Source: Candidatus Iainarchaeum sp.
GTDB lineage: Archaea; Iainarchaeota; Iainarchaeia; Iainarchaeales; JAFCCW01
DNA length: 34,413 bases
NCBI GenBank assembly: GCA_017609985.1
Contig: JAFCCW010000007.1
Location: 1 to 34,413 of the forward strand
Reading direction: 5' to 3'
Shown piece by piece: positions 16,543 to 30,342 of this stretch. Both the position numbers and the translations under genes were made by a program. Position 1 is the stretch's first letter; each line of letters begins with the position of its first letter. A model generated the notes under the pieces. That model was not told the origin of the DNA. It did not search any database and saw only the letters and a program-made list of their open reading frames with translations.

Positions 16543-16941
16543 ATGAAAATAGTTCTTGTAGCAAGCATGGAAAATGAGGTTGAGTTTTTTTCAGAGCTTG
16601 AAGAGCTTGTTTCAAAGCAGGCGCTTGGAATAGATTTTGAGCAGGTGATTGTTCCATCTCACGACAATCTTCCTGCTGCAGTTGCAAAGAATTCTGCTGG
16701 AGCCGACCTTGTTCTTGCAGTTGCCTTGTTTGAAGATGAAGAACAGGAAAAAGAATTTTCTGTAATTCGGGAAAAGCTTGTTGATGCGGAGATTTCTTCT
16801 GGTGTTTTGGTTCTCAAATGCATTCGCGTCTCCGAACTTGAACGCAAAGACCAGAAACAAGAATACATTGCAGAGCTTGCAAATGAATGGTCTGAAAAAA
16901 TTATTCAGGCTCTTTTCAAACCAAACCAATCTTTTCCATAA
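16543..16941 (+). CDS. Lumazine-synthase-fold protein, archaeal riboflavin-synthase-like
   Basis: This 132-residue soluble alpha/beta protein resembles the archaeal RibC family (lumazine-synthase superfamily, not the bacterial RibE type): VIVPSHDNLPAAVAKN followed by ADLVLAVALFEDE and a C-terminal AELANEWSEKIIQALFKPNQ, aligning by eye with the archaeal riboflavin synthase ending LFKPE. It is much diverged: residues after the second strand differ and it is shorter than the usual 155 or so. If active it would dismutate two lumazine molecules to riboflavin. Its last 26 bases overlap the convergent dapA. The assignment is tentative. Confidence 0.55.
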   Translation: MKIVLVASMENEVEFFSELEELVSKQALGIDFEQVIVPSHDNLPAAVAKNSAGADLVLAVALFEDEEQEKEFSVIREKLVDAEISSGVLVLKCIRVSELERKDQKQEYIAELANEWSEKIIQALFKPNQSFP

Positions 16942-17818
16942 CTGCATCAATCTTTTTAGCAGTTTCTTGTGTAACATCCACAAGCGGAAGTCTTGGAACT
17001 CCCACAGCAATTCCCAGCTTTCTTAGCATGTAGTGTGCTGGCATTGGGTTGGTTTCAATGAACAGTGCATCGTACAGCTCTCTTATTTCATCATCAACTT
17101 TTTTTGCTTCTTCAAACTTTCCTTCAAGTGCTAGCTTTATTGCTAGCGAGGTTCTCTTTGGGTCTACGTTTCCAGCAACTGTGATGCATCCTGTTCCGCC
17201 TGACTTAATTATCTCGTGCGTTAACCCATCGTCTCCGGAAATAACATCAAAGTCAAGGTCTTTGCTCATTTCGATTATTTTTCTTATTTGTTCAATGTCT
17301 CCGCTTGCTTCCTTGACTCCAATGATGTTGTCAAATTCTTTGCCAAGCCTTATGTCTGTTTCAGGCTCGATATTTTTCCCTGTTCTGCCTGGCACGTTGT
17401 AGACAATAATGTCTGAGTCTGTTGATTCAGCTATTGCCTTGTAATGCTGGTAGAGTCCTTCCTGGGTTGGCTTGTTCTGGTAGGGTCCGATTGAGAGATG
17501 CGTTTCAATTCCTATGTCATCCATTTTTTTTGTGAACTCGATTGCTTCTCTTGTGCAATTGCTTCCGTCTCCGACAATTAATCTTGTTCTCTTTCCTGCG
17601 TGCTCTAGCGCAAGCTCTGCAAGTCTTACCTGTTCATCTATGGTGAGAGTGCAGGCGTGTCCAGTGCATCCTGCTACAACTATTCCATCTACTCCGCCTT
17701 CAATAACATAATCAATCAGTTGTTTGTATGCTTCTCCGTTCACTTCATGCATTAACCTGTTTCCATCTTCTTTCATTGATGTCACCAATGCTGGATAGCA
17801 TCCTTTTATTCCCGTCAT
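16916..17818 (-). CDS. dapA: 4-hydroxy-tetrahydrodipicolinate synthase
   Basis: This 300-residue TIM-barrel of the DapA family condenses pyruvate with aspartate semialdehyde, the first committed lysine step. The Schiff-base Lys is K169 (IIGVKEASGD); Y140 and R145 (YNVPGRTG) are kept, and the SQEGLYQH-like segment is TQEGLYQHY. Two of the three catalytic-triad positions differ from the E. coli enzyme: the GTTGE motif is GCTGH (C51 for Thr44), and the Tyr107 position is Gln114 (PYQN for PYYN). The dapB stop region overlaps its start by 4 bases (17815-17818), so the two are co-transcribed, dapB first. Context argues for true DapA. Confidence 0.9.
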   Translation of the reverse strand: MTGIKGCYPALVTSMKEDGNRLMHEVNGEAYKQLIDYVIEGGVDGIVVAGCTGHACTLTIDEQVRLAELALEHAGKRTRLIVGDGSNCTREAIEFTKKMDDIGIETHLSIGPYQNKPTQEGLYQHYKAIAESTDSDIIVYNVPGRTGKNIEPETDIRLGKEFDNIIGVKEASGDIEQIRKIIEMSKDLDFDVISGDDGLTHEIIKSGGTGCITVAGNVDPKRTSLAIKLALEGKFEEAKKVDDEIRELYDALFIETNPMPAHYMLRKLGIAVGVPRLPLVDVTQETAKKIDAVMEKIGLV

Positions 17819-18576
17819 ATTTTAGCCCCCTTGTCCAGAATCTCCTTCATCATATCGTCTATTGAAAAAAATCCTTTCTTTCCTTTAATCCATTCTGCTG
17901 CTTTGACTGCTCCTGTCGCAAATCCTTTTCTGTTTCTTGCTGTGTGTTTTAATTCAATTGTGTCTGCTTCAGAGTCAAAAAAAACCGAGTGAGTTCCCGG
18001 CACGTGCCCGCCTCTTACTGATGCAAGGTGAAGTTCCCTCTCATCAATTTGTCTGTCAAGTCTTCCTGTTTCAATCTTGTCCTTGCTGTCAAGTTCTTTT
18101 AGGAGAATGTCTCCAATGGATTTTGCTGTTCCGCTTGGTGAATCTTTTTTTCTTTTATGGTGTTGCTCAACTGCAAAGCAATCATATTCTGGAAAGCAAT
18201 TCAGTAACCTTGCTCCTTCCTTAACCATTCTGAAGAACAGGTTTACTCCTATTGAAAAATTGCTTGCATAAATGCATCCTGTTCCTGCTTTTTCAACAAT
18301 CTTTCTTGCTTTTTTTTCCTGTTCGTACCACCCGGTTGTGCCAATTACTGTGTTTTTTCCAAGCTCTGAAATTTTTTCAAGATTTGGGATTGCTGTTTCT
18401 GGTTGAGTAAAATCAATGCACACGTCTGCGTCTCCAATTGACTCTTTGCTTATTTCTTTGAAGTCTGCTTCTTCTGCAACAGGGTCAATTCTTGAAGCTA
18501 TTTCAATCTCTGTTTCTCTTGCAATATTTTCCACTTCTCTGCCCATTTTTCCGTATCCAATTATTGCTATTTTCAT
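17815..18576 (-). CDS. dapB: 4-hydroxy-tetrahydrodipicolinate reductase
   Basis: This 253-residue NAD(P)H-dependent reductase has the Rossmann motif IIGYGKMGREV at the N-terminus, DVCIDFTQPE, IGTTGWYEQE, NFSIGVNLFF, the catalytic signature QHHKRKKDSPSGTA and the C-terminal KHTARNRKGFATGAVKAAEW. It makes tetrahydrodipicolinate for the lysine route. ATG 18576 has no Shine-Dalgarno; a TATA-like sequence (complement of 18598-18609, CTATTTTAATAA) lies about 27 bases upstream, so the mRNA is probably leaderless. A GTACGAAAG site lies between that box and the start, in position for repression. Confidence 0.94.
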   Translation of the reverse strand: MKIAIIGYGKMGREVENIARETEIEIASRIDPVAEEADFKEISKESIGDADVCIDFTQPETAIPNLEKISELGKNTVIGTTGWYEQEKKARKIVEKAGTGCIYASNFSIGVNLFFRMVKEGARLLNCFPEYDCFAVEQHHKRKKDSPSGTAKSIGDILLKELDSKDKIETGRLDRQIDERELHLASVRGGHVPGTHSVFFDSEADTIELKHTARNRKGFATGAVKAAEWIKGKKGFFSIDDMMKEILDKGAKI

Positions 18577-18717
18577 GAAACACCAGTTGTACGAAAGTTA
18601 TTAAAATAGTTTCCAAATATTGCGAAAGTCGTACTATTTTATATAAATAAACAAAAAACAGTACGTTTTTCGTATTAATGCGTTAGTTTTATAAAAAATT
18701 CGTAGAGGGGGTTTTTT
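18577..18717. promoter_or_regulatory. Divergent dapB/dapL promoter with repeated TACGA-type operator sites
   Basis: Three sites share a TACGA/TCGTA half-site: A, TGTACGAAAGT (18588-18598), between the dapB TATA and start; B, TTGCGAAAGTCGTAC (18620-18634), an imperfect palindrome upstream of the dapL TATA (tatataaata, about 18640-18648); and C, AGTACGTTTTTCGTATT (18660-18676), TACG/CGTA around the expected dapL transcription start. A last CGTAG is at 18701-18705. The spread suits a regulator blocking both promoters. The ligand is presumably lysine, by inference. Confidence 0.65.
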
Positions 18718-19908
18718 ATGGTGTTTGAAACTTGCCTAAACATGAGTGTGGAGAAAATCATTAACGCTCCTTATCCTTTTGATGTTGTTGATGCAAACAA
18801 GTCAAAGGCAAGAAAGAAATTCGGAGACAAGCTTATAGACTTTGGTGTTGGCGATCCTACTGACCCAACTCCTGAGCTTGTTCGTGAGAAAGCAAAGCAG
18901 GCTGTTGATTCTCGCGCCTCGTCCGGTTATCCTTCAACTTGCGGAATTTCTGAATTGAAGGAATCTATTTCCGGTTGGATGAAAAGACGTTTTTCTTCTT
19001 CTTTTTCTTCTGACGATGTTCTTCCTCTTTACGGTGCAAAGTATGCTGTTTTTCATATGCCGTTTCATTTTGTTAATCCTTGCAGTGAAGACTTTGTTTT
19101 GATTCCGAATCCAGGCTATCCTCCTTACACTGACGGCTCGGTTATTGCTGGCGCAAGCGTTCACTATCTTAACATGCTGGAAGAAAATGATTTTCTTCCT
19201 GACTTGTCCTCGGTTCCGGCTTACACTGCAAAGAATTCAAAAATTCTTTTTATTAACTCTCCTCATTCGCCAACAGGCAAAGCTTATTCAAAGGAGTTCC
19301 TGAAGCAGGCTGTTGACTTTTGCAATGACAACAACATTGTTCTTGTGAGTGATGAATGTTATAGTGAAATTTATTTTGGAAAAAAACCAGTAAGTGTTTC
19401 TTCTGTTAATGGAAGCAAGGACTGCGCAATCATAGTCAATTCTCTTTCTAAGCGAAGCAGAATGACGGGTTATGCTGTTGGATTTGCTGCTTCAAAGAAT
19501 CCTGAGCTTTTGAAGCCGCTTGCTTCTGTTCAGTCAAAAAGCATTCAGGGAATTCCTGATTTTCTTCAGGATGCTGCTGTTGCTGCTTTCAATGACGACA
19601 GCCATGTCTTGGAAATGAACAAGCTTTACAATGAAAGGCTTGAAGTATTGCTTCCTGCTCTTAAGTCTGCTGGGTGCAATGTGCGAAAACCTGATGGAAC
19701 ATTTTATTTGTGGGCTGGTGTGCCAAAGAATGAAACAGCTCTTTCATTCTCTGAAAAGCTTTTGCTTGAAAAGGGAATAAACTGTGTGCCCGGCTCCTTG
19801 ATAAGCACTGAATTTGAAGGAATTAATCCTGGTGAAGGATTTGTCAGGTTTGCTCTTGTCCCAAGCCTTGAAAAAACAAAGGATGCTGCAAAGAGGTTGG
19901 GGGAATGA
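18718..19908 (+). CDS. dapL: Class I/II aminotransferase, probable LL-diaminopimelate aminotransferase
   Basis: This 396-residue PLP enzyme of fold type I has the PLP Lys in NSLSKRSRMTGYAVGF, NSPHSPTGKAY, the Asp/Tyr motif SDECYSEIYFG, GYPSTCGISELKESIS near residue 75, and IPNPGYPPY. It has the right partner genes (dapF and lysA downstream, dapA/dapB opposite), no dapD/dapE/dapC-type genes are in the window, and a single transaminase step would give LL-DAP directly. Another DAP or acetylated-DAP aminotransferase cannot be excluded from the sequence. GAGGGGG at 18705-18711, 6 bases before ATG 18718, sets the start. The stop overlaps dapF (ATGA, 19905-19908). Confidence 0.85.
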   Translation: MVFETCLNMSVEKIINAPYPFDVVDANKSKARKKFGDKLIDFGVGDPTDPTPELVREKAKQAVDSRASSGYPSTCGISELKESISGWMKRRFSSSFSSDDVLPLYGAKYAVFHMPFHFVNPCSEDFVLIPNPGYPPYTDGSVIAGASVHYLNMLEENDFLPDLSSVPAYTAKNSKILFINSPHSPTGKAYSKEFLKQAVDFCNDNNIVLVSDECYSEIYFGKKPVSVSSVNGSKDCAIIVNSLSKRSRMTGYAVGFAASKNPELLKPLASVQSKSIQGIPDFLQDAAVAAFNDDSHVLEMNKLYNERLEVLLPALKSAGCNVRKPDGTFYLWAGVPKNETALSFSEKLLLEKGINCVPGSLISTEFEGINPGEGFVRFALVPSLEKTKDAAKRLGE

Positions 19909-20723
19909 TTTCTTTTTCAAAAATTCATGGCTTGGGCAACGACTTCATTGTTGTGAACGAGCTTTTGGAAGAGCTTGTTCCTGAGTCTCTGAAAAAAGAG
20001 TTTGCTGTAAAGCACTGTGCTCGTCACACAGAGGTGGGTGCAGACGGAGTTCTTTTTTTGCAAGAGTCTGCTGAAGCTGATTTCAAAATGCGCATATTTA
20101 ATTCTGATGGGAGTGAAGCAGAAACTTGTGTCAATGGATTAAGATGCGCTGCTTTTCAAAAAGCAATGCTTGACAAAAAATCTGAAGCAAATTATTCAAT
20201 TGAATCAGTTCAGGGAATTGTGAATGCTTCTGTTTCAGTTTCAAGTTCAAGTTCTGGAAAGCTGGCTGAAGTGGAAATAGAATTTCTTGGAACCACAAAA
20301 TATGTTGAGAGAAATTCTGTTGAAATTGGTGGCTGTGAATATGAGTATCATTTTGTTGATGTTGGCAATCCGCACGCGGTTGTCTTTATTGAAAGTTCTG
20401 TTTCCGAGTTTCCAGTTGAGGATGTAGGCCACAAGTTTGAATTTCACGAACGCTTTTCTCCTGCACGAACAAACACTGAATTTGTTAATCTGGTTTCTCA
20501 GGACCAGGTTAAAATGCGGGTTCATGAGCGGGGCGCATGCGAAACAATGGCTTGCGGAAGCGGAAGCATTGCCATAGTCATTGCAGGTGCAGAAAACAAT
20601 CTGCTGAAAAAGGAAACATGGGTCAAGGTAGAGCAGCCAGGCGGAGTTCTTGAAATCAATTATGGAAAAAAACTTCTGTTAAGGGGTGCTGCTGAAAAAG
20701 TTTTTGAAGGAGTGATTGAATAA
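19905..20723 (+). CDS. dapF: Diaminopimelate epimerase
   Basis: This 272-residue cofactor-free racemase has both catalytic Cys regions: ETCVNGLRCAAF in the N-terminal half (family NGxRC) and TMACGSGSIAI in the C-terminal half. The start FSKIHGLGNDFIVV and the middle GNPHAVVF are typical. It interconverts LL-DAP and meso-DAP, the substrate of LysA. It overlaps dapL by 4 bases and lysA by one (TAATG, 20723), so dapL-dapF-lysA is one operon with coupled translation. Confidence 0.95.
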   Translation: MISFSKIHGLGNDFIVVNELLEELVPESLKKEFAVKHCARHTEVGADGVLFLQESAEADFKMRIFNSDGSEAETCVNGLRCAAFQKAMLDKKSEANYSIESVQGIVNASVSVSSSSSGKLAEVEIEFLGTTKYVERNSVEIGGCEYEYHFVDVGNPHAVVFIESSVSEFPVEDVGHKFEFHERFSPARTNTEFVNLVSQDQVKMRVHERGACETMACGSGSIAIVIAGAENNLLKKETWVKVEQPGGVLEINYGKKLLLRGAAEKVFEGVIE

Positions 20724-22006
20724 TGTGGTGGGAAAAACCAGGCAATCTTGAGGTTAGAAACAACAGGCTTTTTTTTGCAGGCAAGGACACTGCAGAACTA
20801 GCCAGTGAATTCGGAACTCCGTTGTATGTTTACAATGCTGAGAGAATCAAGCATAATTATTCTGCAATTGAAGACTCTTTCAAAAACTCTGGTTGCACAA
20901 ATTTTTCTGTTCAGTATGCGATGAAGGCAAACAGTTCTCTCGCAATCCTTTCACTTCTCAAGAATCTTGGTTCCGGAATTGATGCTACTTCTGTTGGAGA
21001 GGTAGAGCTTGCTTTGAATCTTGGTTTTCCAAAGGAAAAAATAATGTTTACTGGAACATCTGTTTCTAATCAAGACCTTGAACAGCTTGCAGAGCTTAAC
21101 ATTCTCATAAACATTGATTCTTTTTCTCAAATGCGCAGACTGGCAAAAATAGGTTTTGAAGGCCCTGTTTCAATTAGGTGGAATCCTGGTCTGGACGGAG
21201 AACTTCACACTCACGCAAATATTATCACTGCCGGCAAGTATGTAAAGTTTGGTATTCCTCAGAACAGGATTTTTGAAGCATTTGAGGAAGCAAAATCTTT
21301 GAAACTGGATGTTCAGGGTTTGCACCAGCATATTGGAAGCGGCTGGCTTGGAGAAGATGTAAGGTCTTTTATTGAAACTGTGTCCCACACTCTTGATGTT
21401 GCAAAAAAGGCTGAGGAAATCATGGGGCAAAAATTCAAGTTTATTGACTTTGGGGGCGGGCCTGGAATTCCATACAAGCGCGAGCAAAATCCTTTTCCAC
21501 TAGAAAAATGGGCTTTTGAAATAGTTGACACAGTCAAAGCCTCTGGTTTGTCTTCAGAAATAAGAGTTGAGCCTGGCAGATATCTTGTTGGTGATGCTGG
21601 CGTGCTATTGCTTGAAATAAATACTGTTGAAGAAAAAAATATTCCTGTTCTTGGAGTAAACGGCGGCTTCACTACTCTTGCTCGCCCTGCAATGTATGGT
21701 GCTTTTCACGAGCTAGTGGTCTGTGAAAATGTCAATGGAAGAAGCAGAAAAGAGTTTATGGTTGCAGGAAATCTTTGCGAGTCAGGGGATGTGTTCACTG
21801 AAGACAAGAAAACTCTTCGCGAGCTTCCTGTTCCAGAGGAAGGAAACAATCTTGCAATCCTCAATGCAGGAGCTTATGGCTTTGCAATGGCTAGTTCCTA
21901 CAATTCACAGCCCCTGCCAGCAGAAGTTTTAATTGAAAATGGAAAGCCAAGGCTTGTGCGGGAAAGAGGAACAATAAACAATATGTTTGGAAACCAAAAA
22001 AAATAA
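20723..22006 (+). CDS. lysA: Diaminopimelate decarboxylase
   Basis: This 427-residue fold-III PLP decarboxylase has the PLP Lys in VQYAMKANSS, the phosphate-binding region DATSVGEVELAL and IHIGS-like HQHIGSGWL, GGGPGIPY, the substrate Arg in EPGRYLVG, the active-site Cys in CESGDVF, and the C-terminal GAYGFAMASSYN. It performs the last lysine step, meso-DAP to lysine plus CO2. It is the last gene of the dapL-dapF-lysA run and is followed 14 bases later by the convergent antiporter gene. Confidence 0.95.
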   Translation: MWWEKPGNLEVRNNRLFFAGKDTAELASEFGTPLYVYNAERIKHNYSAIEDSFKNSGCTNFSVQYAMKANSSLAILSLLKNLGSGIDATSVGEVELALNLGFPKEKIMFTGTSVSNQDLEQLAELNILINIDSFSQMRRLAKIGFEGPVSIRWNPGLDGELHTHANIITAGKYVKFGIPQNRIFEAFEEAKSLKLDVQGLHQHIGSGWLGEDVRSFIETVSHTLDVAKKAEEIMGQKFKFIDFGGGPGIPYKREQNPFPLEKWAFEIVDTVKASGLSSEIRVEPGRYLVGDAGVLLLEINTVEEKNIPVLGVNGGFTTLARPAMYGAFHELVVCENVNGRSRKEFMVAGNLCESGDVFTEDKKTLRELPVPEEGNNLAILNAGAYGFAMASSYNSQPLPAEVLIENGKPRLVRERGTINNMFGNQKK

Positions 22007-26282: not shown

Positions 26283-27269
26283 ATGAAGGTTAGCTATGAG
26301 AATGGACTAAGAGTCGGGAATCTCACAATTGATCCTGAGCGACAGACCAGGGCAGAGCACGTGCTGATAACCCATGCGCACTCTGACCATGTCAAGCTGA
26401 ACAAGGAAAGCAATTTTTTGATGTCAAAGGAAACCCACAAACTTGTGAAGTCTCGCTTCAAAAAAGATTTTCAGGGAAAGTCTCTTTCTTTTGGAAAAAA
26501 ACACAAAGTGGATGGTGTTTCGCTTACTCTTTCAGAGAGTGGTCACATTCTTGGCTCGTCCCAGTCGCTGGTTGAGGGTGATGGAAAGAGCCTGGCTGTG
26601 AGCAGTGACTTCAAGTTGCAGGATTCTCTTGTCACAAAGTCAGCAAAACCTATTTCTGCAGATATTCTTGTTATTGAAACAACTTTTGGTCTGCCGTCTT
26701 ACAGCTTTCCTGAGCGAACCCAAGTATATGAAGACATGGGCAATTGGCTGAAGCAGAATGAAAAAGATGGTTGTTTTTCTCTCCTTGCAGGTTATTCTCT
26801 TGGCAAGGCGCAGGAGCTAACTGCTATTTCAAATCAATATGCTGGGGTTTCTCCGATTGTTCATGAAAGCGTTTTTGAAAATAACGAGGTTTACAAAAAC
26901 TTTGGTGTTAATCTCGGCAAATACTTGAAGCTTAATCACAATCTTGGCGAAAGCTCTGTCTTGATAATGCCTCCTTCCCTTGTTGACGCACACCTGCTTC
27001 AGGCTTTGGAGATTTCAACAGGCAAGAAGATTAGATCTGCTATGGCAACTGGCTGGCCTTATCGAAGATGTTATGACCGTATCTTTCCGTTAAGTGATCA
27101 TGCAGATTTTGCCCAGCTTGAAAGTTATGTCCAGCAGTCAAATCCAAAGCTTGTTCTCACAACCCATGGGTTTTCAAAACAGTTTGCAAGGCATGTCCAA
27201 AGAAGGCTTAAGATTCCTGCACGGCCGCTTGAAGAAGCATGGCAGAAGAGTATGGCAGAGTTTTTTTAG
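26283..27269 (+). CDS. Beta-CASP metallohydrolase, mRNA 3'-end-processing-factor-like exonuclease
   Basis: This 328-residue MBL/beta-CASP protein has motif 2 HAHSDHVKL (H-x-H-x-D-H), the third ligand in LSESGHILGSSQSLVE, the Asp ligand in VSSDFKLQDSL, ETTFGLPSYSFP, AGYSLGKAQELTAI and the C-terminal PLSDHADFAQL with TTHGF. It belongs with the COG1236-type 'exonuclease' proteins involved in RNA or DNA processing in archaea. It is a short form, lacking KH domains and with a reduced beta-CASP insertion. It stands alone, close to the pseudogene that follows. Confidence 0.88.
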   Translation: MKVSYENGLRVGNLTIDPERQTRAEHVLITHAHSDHVKLNKESNFLMSKETHKLVKSRFKKDFQGKSLSFGKKHKVDGVSLTLSESGHILGSSQSLVEGDGKSLAVSSDFKLQDSLVTKSAKPISADILVIETTFGLPSYSFPERTQVYEDMGNWLKQNEKDGCFSLLAGYSLGKAQELTAISNQYAGVSPIVHESVFENNEVYKNFGVNLGKYLKLNHNLGESSVLIMPPSLVDAHLLQALEISTGKKIRSAMATGWPYRRCYDRIFPLSDHADFAQLESYVQQSNPKLVLTTHGFSKQFARHVQRRLKIPARPLEEAWQKSMAEFF

Positions 27270-27378: not shown

Positions 27379-28522
27379 ATGAATGTAATACATTGGGGTT
27401 TTTTATTGGGGTTGGGAAATCATAATTTTAAGACAGTTGCCTTTTTTTGTTTTGCAATACTTTTCCTTTTAGGCAGTGCTTTTGCCTGGTGGGATAACAG
27501 TTGGGGATATCGGCAGAAGATAACAATCAACAGTTCCCAGGTTCCCTCAGACCAGGTTGATTTTCCAGTTCTAGTTGACATTAATGTTTCTTCAAACAAG
27601 GTTTTTCTCCGCGCACTTTCTGACGGGAACGACGTTGCTTTTATTGCAAGCGATGACTTGACTCAGCTTTCTCACGAGCTTGAGCATTTTGATTCTGATG
27701 GAAACCTGACAGCATGGGTTAAAATTCCTTCGCTTTCAAGTTCTTCCGATACACTAATTTACATGTATTATGGGAACTCTTCTGCTTCTTCCCAAGAGGA
27801 TGCATTCAATGCCTGGGACTCAAATTACGTGTCTATTTTGCACATGAATGAGACAGGCTCTGGAAAAACAGTTTTTTGTCTTAATGCGCTTTACAATGCC
27901 TGCAAGCAGGGTTATCGTGCATTGTACATGTCTTTTGAAGAGCCCGAGGACAGGCTTGTTTCGCATATGCAAAATTTCGGGTTTGATGTTCAACCATTTA
28001 TTGACAAGGGCACTCTTATAATAAAACGATTTTCTGCTCTTGATATTGCAAGAAGTGTTGAGGCTCTTCTTTCAGATGCAAAGAATGAATTGCTTGTTGA
28101 TGTTCAGCCGATTCTGATTCCTGAAGAATTTAAGGCAGATATTGTTGTAATGGATTCTCTTTCTTCAATAGCTTCTGCTTTTTCAGGGGAAGAGTATAGG
28201 TTCAGAATTTTACATGGAGCAGCTTTTTCGCTATCTTGAATCTCATAAGATTACTTCTCTTCTCATTCGTGAAACATCCCGTCCAACCCATATTGGGATT
28301 TCTTTTTCCGAAAAGGGTGAGGCAATTTCATTCCTTTCAGATGGGATAATTGCAATATACAATGTTTTTTATAAAGAAGGGCACAGGGGCAGGGGAATTG
28401 AAGTTCTTAAACTTCGTGGTTCAAAGATTGACAGGCGAATTGTGGAAATGGATATTCTTGAAAAGAAAGGAATTGTTGTTTTCCCAAAAAAGCAGTTAAA
28501 GGGAAGCTATACTTTGACCTAG
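27379..28522 (+). pseudogene. Chimeric, frameshifted gene: exported DUF2341 N-terminus joined to a KaiC-like ATPase
   Basis: The first part (about residues 1-158) has a signal peptide (AFFCFAILFLLGSAFA), then a DUF2341 domain: WWDNSWGYRQKITI, VDFPVLVDINV and the ending AWDSNYVSILHMNE. At base 27853 it changes abruptly to TGSGKTVFCLNALYNACKQG, the Walker A and core of a RecA/KaiC-like ATPase, without that family's first 30 or so residues. A +1 frameshift in a T4 run (28208-28211) then breaks the ATPase: the other frame from 28214 continues as MEQLFRYLESHKITSLLIRE, with the normal C-terminus RGSKIDRRIVEMDILE. An exported, frameshifted ATPase would not work, so this is a decayed fusion. Confidence 0.85.
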
Positions 28523-28575: not shown

Positions 28576-30342
28576 ATGCTTAGAACACACACTTGCGGAG
28601 AACTTAACAGCAAATCCATTGGAAAGCAGGTTGAACTTTCTGGTTGGGTTTCCACGAGACGAGACCATGGAAAGCTGACTTTTATTGATTTAAGGGACAG
28701 ATATGGAATTACTCAATGTGTTTTCAATCCTGAAAAGCATAATAAAACTCATTCTCTTGCAAAGGATTTGAGAAGCGAATTTGTTGTTAAAGTCAATGGC
28801 AAAGTGCAGAAGAGACCAAGCGGAACCGAGAACAAGGATATTCCAACTGGTGATGTAGAGGTTGAAGTTGAAGAACTTGAAATTTTTTCCCCTGCTGAAC
28901 CACTGCCTTTTGAACTTGATGGGCGGATTGAGGTAAACGAGGATTTGAGAATGAAACATCGTTATCTTGATCTTCGCACTGAGAGAATGAAGAAAAATAT
29001 TGAAGCAAGGCACAGAATTGTTAAAGTTTTCAGAGATTATTTTGACAAGCTTAATTTTTTAGAAATTGAAACTCCAATGCTTGCAAAGAGTACTCCTGAG
29101 GGAGCAAGAGATTATCTTGTTCCAAGCAGAGTGCATGCAGGCAAGTTTTATGCACTGCCTCAGTCACCGCAGATTTACAAACAGCTTTTAATGCTGAGCG
29201 GACTCGACAGATATGTCCAGATAGTTAAGTGCTTCAGGGACGAGGATTTGAGGGCAGACCGGCAGCCAGAATTTACTCAGGTTGATGTGGAAATGTCCTT
29301 TATTGAACAGGACGACATAATCCGCGTGATTGAGGGGGCAGTAGAACTTGTAATGAAAGAATATAAGGGATTGAGTGTGAAGACTCCTTTTCCAAGAATG
29401 ACTTATGAAGAGGCAATGGACAGGTTTGGTTCAGACAAGCCTGACACAAGATTTGGCTTAGAGCTAATTGACTTGAGCAAAGAGCTTTCTGATACTGAAT
29501 TTAATATTTTCAATACTGTTTTAAAATCTGGAGGCGTGCTTAAAGCAATTGTTGCTCCTGGAATGGGAGGTCACTCACGAAAAGAGCATGATAAATTGCA
29601 CGATGTAGTAAAGGTTTATGGTGCAAAAGGTCTCTCAACCCTTCGCGTTGAAAAAACAGGTTTTGATTCACAAATTTCAAAATTTTTAAAGGAAAAGCAT
29701 TTCAAGGAAGTTGTGAAAAAAACTAATGCAAAGGAAGGAGACCTTATTCTGATTGTTGCAGACAAGCCAGGCATAGTTAATACTTCGCTTGGGGAACTAA
29801 GAAACTATCTTGGAAGAAAACTAGAGCTTATTGACAAAAGCAAATTTAATTTTCTCTGGGTTGTTGATTTTCCCTTGTTTGAATGGGATGACGATGATGA
29901 GCGATGGAAGTCAATGCATCACCCGTTCACTTCTCCAATTAACGAGGATGTGAAGTATCTTGAAAAAGAGCCCGGCAGGGTAAGAAGCAATGCTTATGAT
30001 CTTGTCCTGAATGGCTCGGAAATTGGCGGTGGCTCGATTAGAATTCATAACAGGGAGATGCAACAGCGCATGTTCAAGGCTCTTGGCATCTCTGAAAGCG
30101 AGGCTCAGGAAAAATTCGGATTTATGATGGACTCTTTTAAGTACGGTGCTCCCCCGCACGGCGGAATTGCGCTTGGTCTTGACAGATTTGTTGCTTTGCT
30201 TGCAGAAGAAGATTCTATCCGGGAAGTTGTTGCTTTTCCAAAAAACAAGGCTGCTGAGGGTGTAATGGAGGGTTCTCCCTCAGAAGTTGACGATAAGCAG
30301 TTGAAGGAACTCTCGTTGAAGAAAGACCTGAAAAAGAAATAG
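28576..30342 (+). CDS. aspS: Aspartyl-tRNA synthetase, bacterial type
   Basis: This 588-residue class IIb synthetase has the OB-fold anticodon domain (GKQVELSGWVSTRRDHGKL), catalytic motif 1 around LDLRTERM and FLEIETPMLAKSTPEGARDYL, motif 2 CFRDEDLRADRQPEFTQ, the bacterial GAD insertion (residues about 290-410) and motif 3 GLDRFVALLAEE. Archaeal AspRS are about 430 residues and lack GAD, so this is a bacterial-type gene, probably acquired by transfer. Residue 31 is His, as in bacterial enzymes known to be non-discriminating, and gatC, gatA and gatB follow, so it probably also makes Asp-tRNA-Asn. Confidence 0.94.
   Translation: MLRTHTCGELNSKSIGKQVELSGWVSTRRDHGKLTFIDLRDRYGITQCVFNPEKHNKTHSLAKDLRSEFVVKVNGKVQKRPSGTENKDIPTGDVEVEVEELEIFSPAEPLPFELDGRIEVNEDLRMKHRYLDLRTERMKKNIEARHRIVKVFRDYFDKLNFLEIETPMLAKSTPEGARDYLVPSRVHAGKFYALPQSPQIYKQLLMLSGLDRYVQIVKCFRDEDLRADRQPEFTQVDVEMSFIEQDDIIRVIEGAVELVMKEYKGLSVKTPFPRMTYEEAMDRFGSDKPDTRFGLELIDLSKELSDTEFNIFNTVLKSGGVLKAIVAPGMGGHSRKEHDKLHDVVKVYGAKGLSTLRVEKTGFDSQISKFLKEKHFKEVVKKTNAKEGDLILIVADKPGIVNTSLGELRNYLGRKLELIDKSKFNFLWVVDFPLFEWDDDDERWKSMHHPFTSPINEDVKYLEKEPGRVRSNAYDLVLNGSEIGGGSIRIHNREMQQRMFKALGISESEAQEKFGFMMDSFKYGAPPHGGIALGLDRFVALLAEEDSIREVVAFPKNKAAEGVMEGSPSEVDDKQLKELSLKKDLKKK

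Follow-up and report, generated by a model that had tools for sequence, protein, structure and literature searches.

Results

A fused reading frame between two intact genes

The window analysed here, a stretch of 34,413 nucleotides, is an entire contig (G000:C13) of a 1.16 Mb assembly that comprises 37 contigs and is 87% complete. On its forward strand an open reading frame of 286 aa (27379-28239) starts with a hydrophobic N terminus that, judged by eye, resembles a signal peptide (putatively of the Sec type), continues as a DUF2341 domain and then passes unbroken into a KaiC-family ATPase from the Walker A motif onwards. In Pfam searches the N-terminal half hits DUF2341 (E 3.6e-11, profile positions 1-61 of 84), the C-terminal half matches PF06745 KaiC (E 7e-16, profile start at 27), and a second reading frame (28214-28522) matches the remainder of the KaiC profile (144-230 of 231, E 7.8e-12), all three with E values well past chance. 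Both domains are truncated precisely at the junction: DUF2341 is incomplete and the LamG-type part following it is missing, as is the pre-Walker A motif of the ATPase (TGIxGFDxLF..GIPxGSxVLVEGGP). A sequence-only reading of this DNA had proposed a putative signal peptide and DUF2341 running to HMNE, followed at once by the Walker A motif TGSGKT. Pfam supports the DUF2341 and ATPase parts of that claim and Walker A does sit at the junction, but its position had to be corrected: TGSGKT occupies 27853-27870, not 27850-27864, and HMNE ends at 27852.

The remnant of the surface-protein gene (27379-27855, forward strand) shares 54-55% identity with the N terminus of a relative's surface protein of 747-751 aa. 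The first part of the ATPase (27856-28207, forward strand) reaches from Walker A to just past Walker B; five intact orthologues from the same order are 58-68% identical to the window's ATPase, and 63-68% over this piece. A run of four T (28208-28211) then shifts the frame by one, so that the ATPase pieces share no single continuous frame, and the second part (28214-28522, forward strand) is complete in the other frame to the conserved C terminus, ...LKGSYTLT, by Pfam match and alignment. The frameshift had been placed at this very run, and orthologues aligned there indeed run in one frame through RFRIYMEQ. Frameshift aside, alignment with the five intact orthologues indicates that the two pieces combined lack only the part before Walker A. 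That this N terminus is gone was called correctly. The length given was 30 or so residues; the short forms of relatives have 36-50 residues before Walker A and others have more.

Both neighbours lie on the same strand and are intact. The left one (26283-27269) looks metallo-beta-lactamase-like by eye, with no Pfam match at 1e-5, and the right one (28576-30342) encodes an aspartyl-tRNA synthetase (Pfam tRNA-synt_2, E 6e-125). All scanned genes of the window with a Pfam match are unbroken, including aspS, gatA, gatB, gatC, those for fibrillarin and Nop5, and lysine-pathway genes, which makes general indel errors unlikely. The lysine-pathway genes form a run (16919-22006: DapA, DapB, an aminotransferase, DapF, LysA) in this DPANN-type genome.

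Orthologues of the ATPase and the search for natural fusions

Searched separately in relatives, the two halves turn out to belong to two kinds of gene that are operon neighbours on one strand. A fused, in-frame homologue, which the sequence-only reading had named as evidence against a decayed chimera, did not appear among 75 genomes of the order, where each half matches separately. Neither did one appear in a wider scan of 80 loci, most of them from DPANN and almost all from archaea, and a natural fusion was rejected on these counts; the fusion is known only from the window's assembly. A copy is counted among the ATPases of the module described below (hereafter K) at 60% or more identity to module ATPases from Walker A to the C terminus; the window copy is above this, with up to 73% identity to orthologues of the wider scan. 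About 75 intact orthologues elsewhere carry neither a signal peptide nor DUF2341, and the C-terminal part is full-length in 75 of the 78 callable loci of that scan. Two contigs assigned to Gracilibacteria and Babeliales (L121 and L136) also carry an archaeal K and are probably mis-binned.

N-terminal extensions occur at 30-odd K loci and are Lys-rich, winged-helix or hemerythrin-like (by eye), with no hydrophobic segment and no DUF2341; the extended proteins all retain the 30-odd conserved residues before Walker A. The hemerythrin-like or winged-helix-like parts (L170, L174; L152, L157, L171, L175) hint at sensing or regulation.

The state of the surviving ATPase

All 28 of the 28 invariant columns are kept in the surviving part of the ATPase, Walker A and Walker B included. 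Decay through many substitutions was considered and set aside, as the window copy departs at 4 of about 64 highly conserved columns (not counting the one at the junction) versus a mean of 1.5 in the others, which is not clearly high. Since the invariant columns are kept and departures elsewhere are few, inactivation would seem to be recent, or only apparent. In a model of the L123 orthologue, the elements corresponding to those lost before the P-loop are E8-10, E13-15, H19-24 and E34-39, including the strand beside the P-loop. Without these elements, directed to export and cut by a frameshift, the product would not be expected to work.

The same observations bear on whether the fusion might be real and expressed, as an exported ATPase or as an ATPase reached through programmed frameshifting. 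In favour of this, the two parts meet in frame, no invariant ATPase residue in the surviving part has changed, and many K proteins have natural N-terminal extensions. However, the extensions of those 30-odd loci come without signal peptide or DUF2341 and always leave the pre-Walker A residues in place, whereas the window copy has lost the strand beside the P-loop, and its aligned relatives are in frame at the shift site. I regard an expressed fusion as extremely improbable.

GC and GC3 mark neither half as foreign. In a tree, the window's ATPase falls weakly with a mixed set from Pacearchaeota and Nanoarchaeota and not with Diapherotrites, a placement too weak for a claim of horizontal transfer. 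A second broken KaiC-like ATPase was seen on an Aenigmatarchaeota contig (L158:1700-3000); it lacks a stretch beyond its Walker B region and changes frame.

A conserved gene set around intact K

Together with two further genes, G and S, K is part of a conserved gene set. G, S or both lie near K at 54 of 77 loci from DPANN and other archaea, and at 20 of the 25 loci that have at least 9 kb on both sides. In Diapherotrites, the order to which the window belongs, an intact K comes last in a co-directional trio, G-S-K (L119, L123, L129), and S-K occurs in L130 and L150. Gene order varies and may be G-S-K, K-G-S or convergent, or G and S may be fused. The module is present in a complete genome (L115) and on long contigs.

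G is a very large exported surface protein, ranging from 941 aa (where a contig end cuts it) to about 3,300 aa (in a copy fused to S). It contains LamG, beta-helix, Ig-like and NEW3 domains and ends in a predicted membrane segment followed by a helical tail that is presumably cytosolic. S is a small all-helical membrane protein of ~300-365 aa, modelled (mean pLDDT 93) with a helical outer part, one long membrane-crossing helix and a helical hairpin inside. It has no match in Pfam, and a fold search against solved structures returned nothing convincing (best E 0.2). The G-tail and S profiles weakly recognise each other's proteins, and thus the tails of G and S look related. Furthermore, G and S are fused as one protein in L118, L141 and L133, which supports their joint action.

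The junction and a proposed deletion across the operon

In some surface proteins of relatives HxNE is followed by ET or something similar, and in K the sequence is EGGPGSGKT. At 27853-27858 the window DNA, GAG-ACA-GGC-TCT-GGA around the join, fits surface sequence (HxNET) through ACA and ATPase sequence (GSGKT) from GGC, as judged from the P-loop DNA of 16 orthologues and eight DUF2341-type sequences. Because of these matches the junction is best placed at 27855/27856, give or take one codon. The overlap needed there would be at most ~2-3 nt, and a search for recombination repeats at the join returned only short chance matches, with no long repeat around it. A deletion joining two genes had been suggested earlier and is well supported, these kinds of gene being same-strand operon neighbours in relatives, but the TSG microhomology offered as its mechanism fits poorly: an in-register crossover would give ETSGKT, and the window has ETGSGKT. 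Nor would the missing DNA be merely intergenic: judged by relatives, it would cover the remainder of the giant surface gene together with the whole gene for the small membrane protein.

With good confidence, then, I read the fused frame as a deletion scar, a young pseudogene produced by one multi-kb internal deletion across a G-S-K operon and then a one-base indel. The ancestor would have carried the three-gene operon, as other Diapherotrites do. A single deletion of several kb would have taken out the surface gene's 3' part, the complete S gene and 36-50 codons from the start of K, with the ends happening to meet in frame; by the layout of L123 and L129 its size would be about 8-9 kb, and may differ in the window's species. 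Later, a one-base indel would have put K out of frame. The resulting product would carry an exported DUF2341 fragment in front of an ATPase that lacks its first core strand, and neither activity would be expected of it. One such deletion, from an N-terminal DUF2341 to the Walker A of K, yields the arrangement in the window and also explains the missing S and G tail. Counter to it, the clade with which the window's K weakly groups includes several loci ordered K-G-S, an order from which a simple deletion would not produce this join.

The surface half may come from G itself or from another surface gene just upstream. In L148 one protein adjoining K combines a putative signal peptide and DUF2341 at its N terminus with the G tail; in L137 a giant with N-terminal DUF2341 and the G tail lies beside K; and in L118 DUF2341 sits further in, again with the G tail. 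The sequences nearest to the DUF2341 half are surface proteins of G035 (55% identity) and G048 (49%), with no G tail detected in either; a search of the G048 genome turned up neither S nor a G tail. The donor could therefore be an ordinary surface gene lying ahead of the module, with the whole of G deleted as well, a special case of the deletion just described. DUF2341 proteins are present in 14 of 53 related genomes, which would suit such a donor, but the giants of L148 and L137 unite both features next to K, and G is the usual upstream gene in Diapherotrites, so that one gene suffices. An unrelated donor is a candidate worth keeping in mind, but on balance an unlikely one.

What the assembly lacks and the possibility of an artefact

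S and the G tail are absent from G000 in profile searches and from the six frames of the window; the searches were run with positive controls, and for S and the G tail five control genomes gave E values of 1e-52 to 1e-124. In a genome that is 87% complete, the missing S and G fall short of proving loss. A separate ATPase N terminus was likewise not found in the rest of G000, where the KaiC matches are distinct paralogues. Other LamG or DUF2341 matches, considered as displaced pieces, are separate genes at contig ends (C32 and C23). Contig C23 also carries, apart, a homologue (L104:1136-4234) of a HerA-like ATPase (by eye) that in G064 lies just downstream of a KaiC-like gene (L100:2022-6239); the G064 protein has an apparent intein after GSGK (CLTGDTLITLENG...), and the G000 homologue has none at that point.

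These searches bear on the possibility that the join is an assembly or amplification artefact, in which two true stretches, from one genome or from two strains, were misjoined at 27855/27856 and the operon is intact in the cell. Giant repetitive surface genes assemble badly, which counts in its favour, as do the draft state of the assembly, with its many contigs and incomplete genome, and the otherwise conserved residues of the ATPase; a misjoin could also coincide with a one-base error. Yet there is no long repeat near the join for an assembler to follow, and the pieces that a misjoin should leave over (the 3' part of the surface gene, S and the ATPase N terminus) were found nowhere else in the assembly. 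Moreover, no other scanned gene of the window is broken. An artefact is distinctly unlikely, though it deserves more weight than a token mention.

Discussion

The proposed deletion scar points to a module, and its relation to known systems can be judged from each of its parts. The window's ATPase matches PF06745, the KaiC superfamily (which includes the single-domain archaeal PH0284/2dr3 and PH0186/2zts and also ArlH/FlaH), on both sides of the frameshift; unlike members of this superfamily, it has no N terminus. KaiC structures match an intact orthologue with E values as low as 5e-37, and FlaH matches it at about 6e-5. Two intact orthologues score well under every NCBIfam cut-off for KaiC and ArlH, and for this reason they look like a subfamily of their own.

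Makarova et al. (2016; PMC4858521) linked large archaeal members of the DUF2341 surface proteins (PF10102) to type IV pili and put forward KaiC-like ATPases as regulators of such pili in archaea. The window copy shares with the DUF2341 proteins a putative signal peptide and an N-terminal DUF2341, but breaks off within that domain, and the window showed no pilus genes. Like those KaiC-like ATPases, K is encoded beside genes for surface structures. In place of pilins or secretion ATPases, however, its partners are a small tail protein and an adhesin-like giant.

A further comparison is with the giant surface proteins of Nanohaloarchaea, proposed mediators of host contact (PMC10266531). Like G, these are giants of DPANN archaea that reach the cell surface through Sec and have an ATPase gene nearby. 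The nanohaloarchaeal giants are 8,900-9,400 aa long and accompanied by VirB4/TraG-like ATPases (PMC10266531), whereas G has about 940-3,300 aa (some copies being cut by contig ends) and a KaiC-like neighbour. The LamG, beta-helix and Ig-like or NEW3 domains also set G apart.

In the intact module, K would bind S and G at their cytosolic helical tails and use ATP to control how both are assembled or displayed. With the predicted topology, G-S-K is probably an adhesin whose extracellular domains would be controlled from inside by K acting on these tails. Tentatively, at somewhat short of even confidence, I propose that it amounts to an undescribed and widespread archaeal surface apparatus in which a dedicated K runs or gates G and S, with their related cytosolic helical tails, from inside the cell; it would occur in many DPANN phyla and now and then outside them, and would have been deleted in the window's lineage. 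No description of G-S-K was found in the literature searched; a review of KaiC-like ATPases by Makarova et al. from 2017, in mBio, lay outside that search and is said to present these ATPases as archaeal signalling hubs.

The scar itself is most probably an ordinary deletion pseudogene, and its interest lies in the module that it indicates, besides the warning it gives against annotating an exported ATPase. How DPANN archaea attach to other cells is poorly understood, and the conserved set connects a KaiC-like ATPase with giant surface proteins in these organisms. As the module is present in a complete genome and on long contigs, its partners are now testable.
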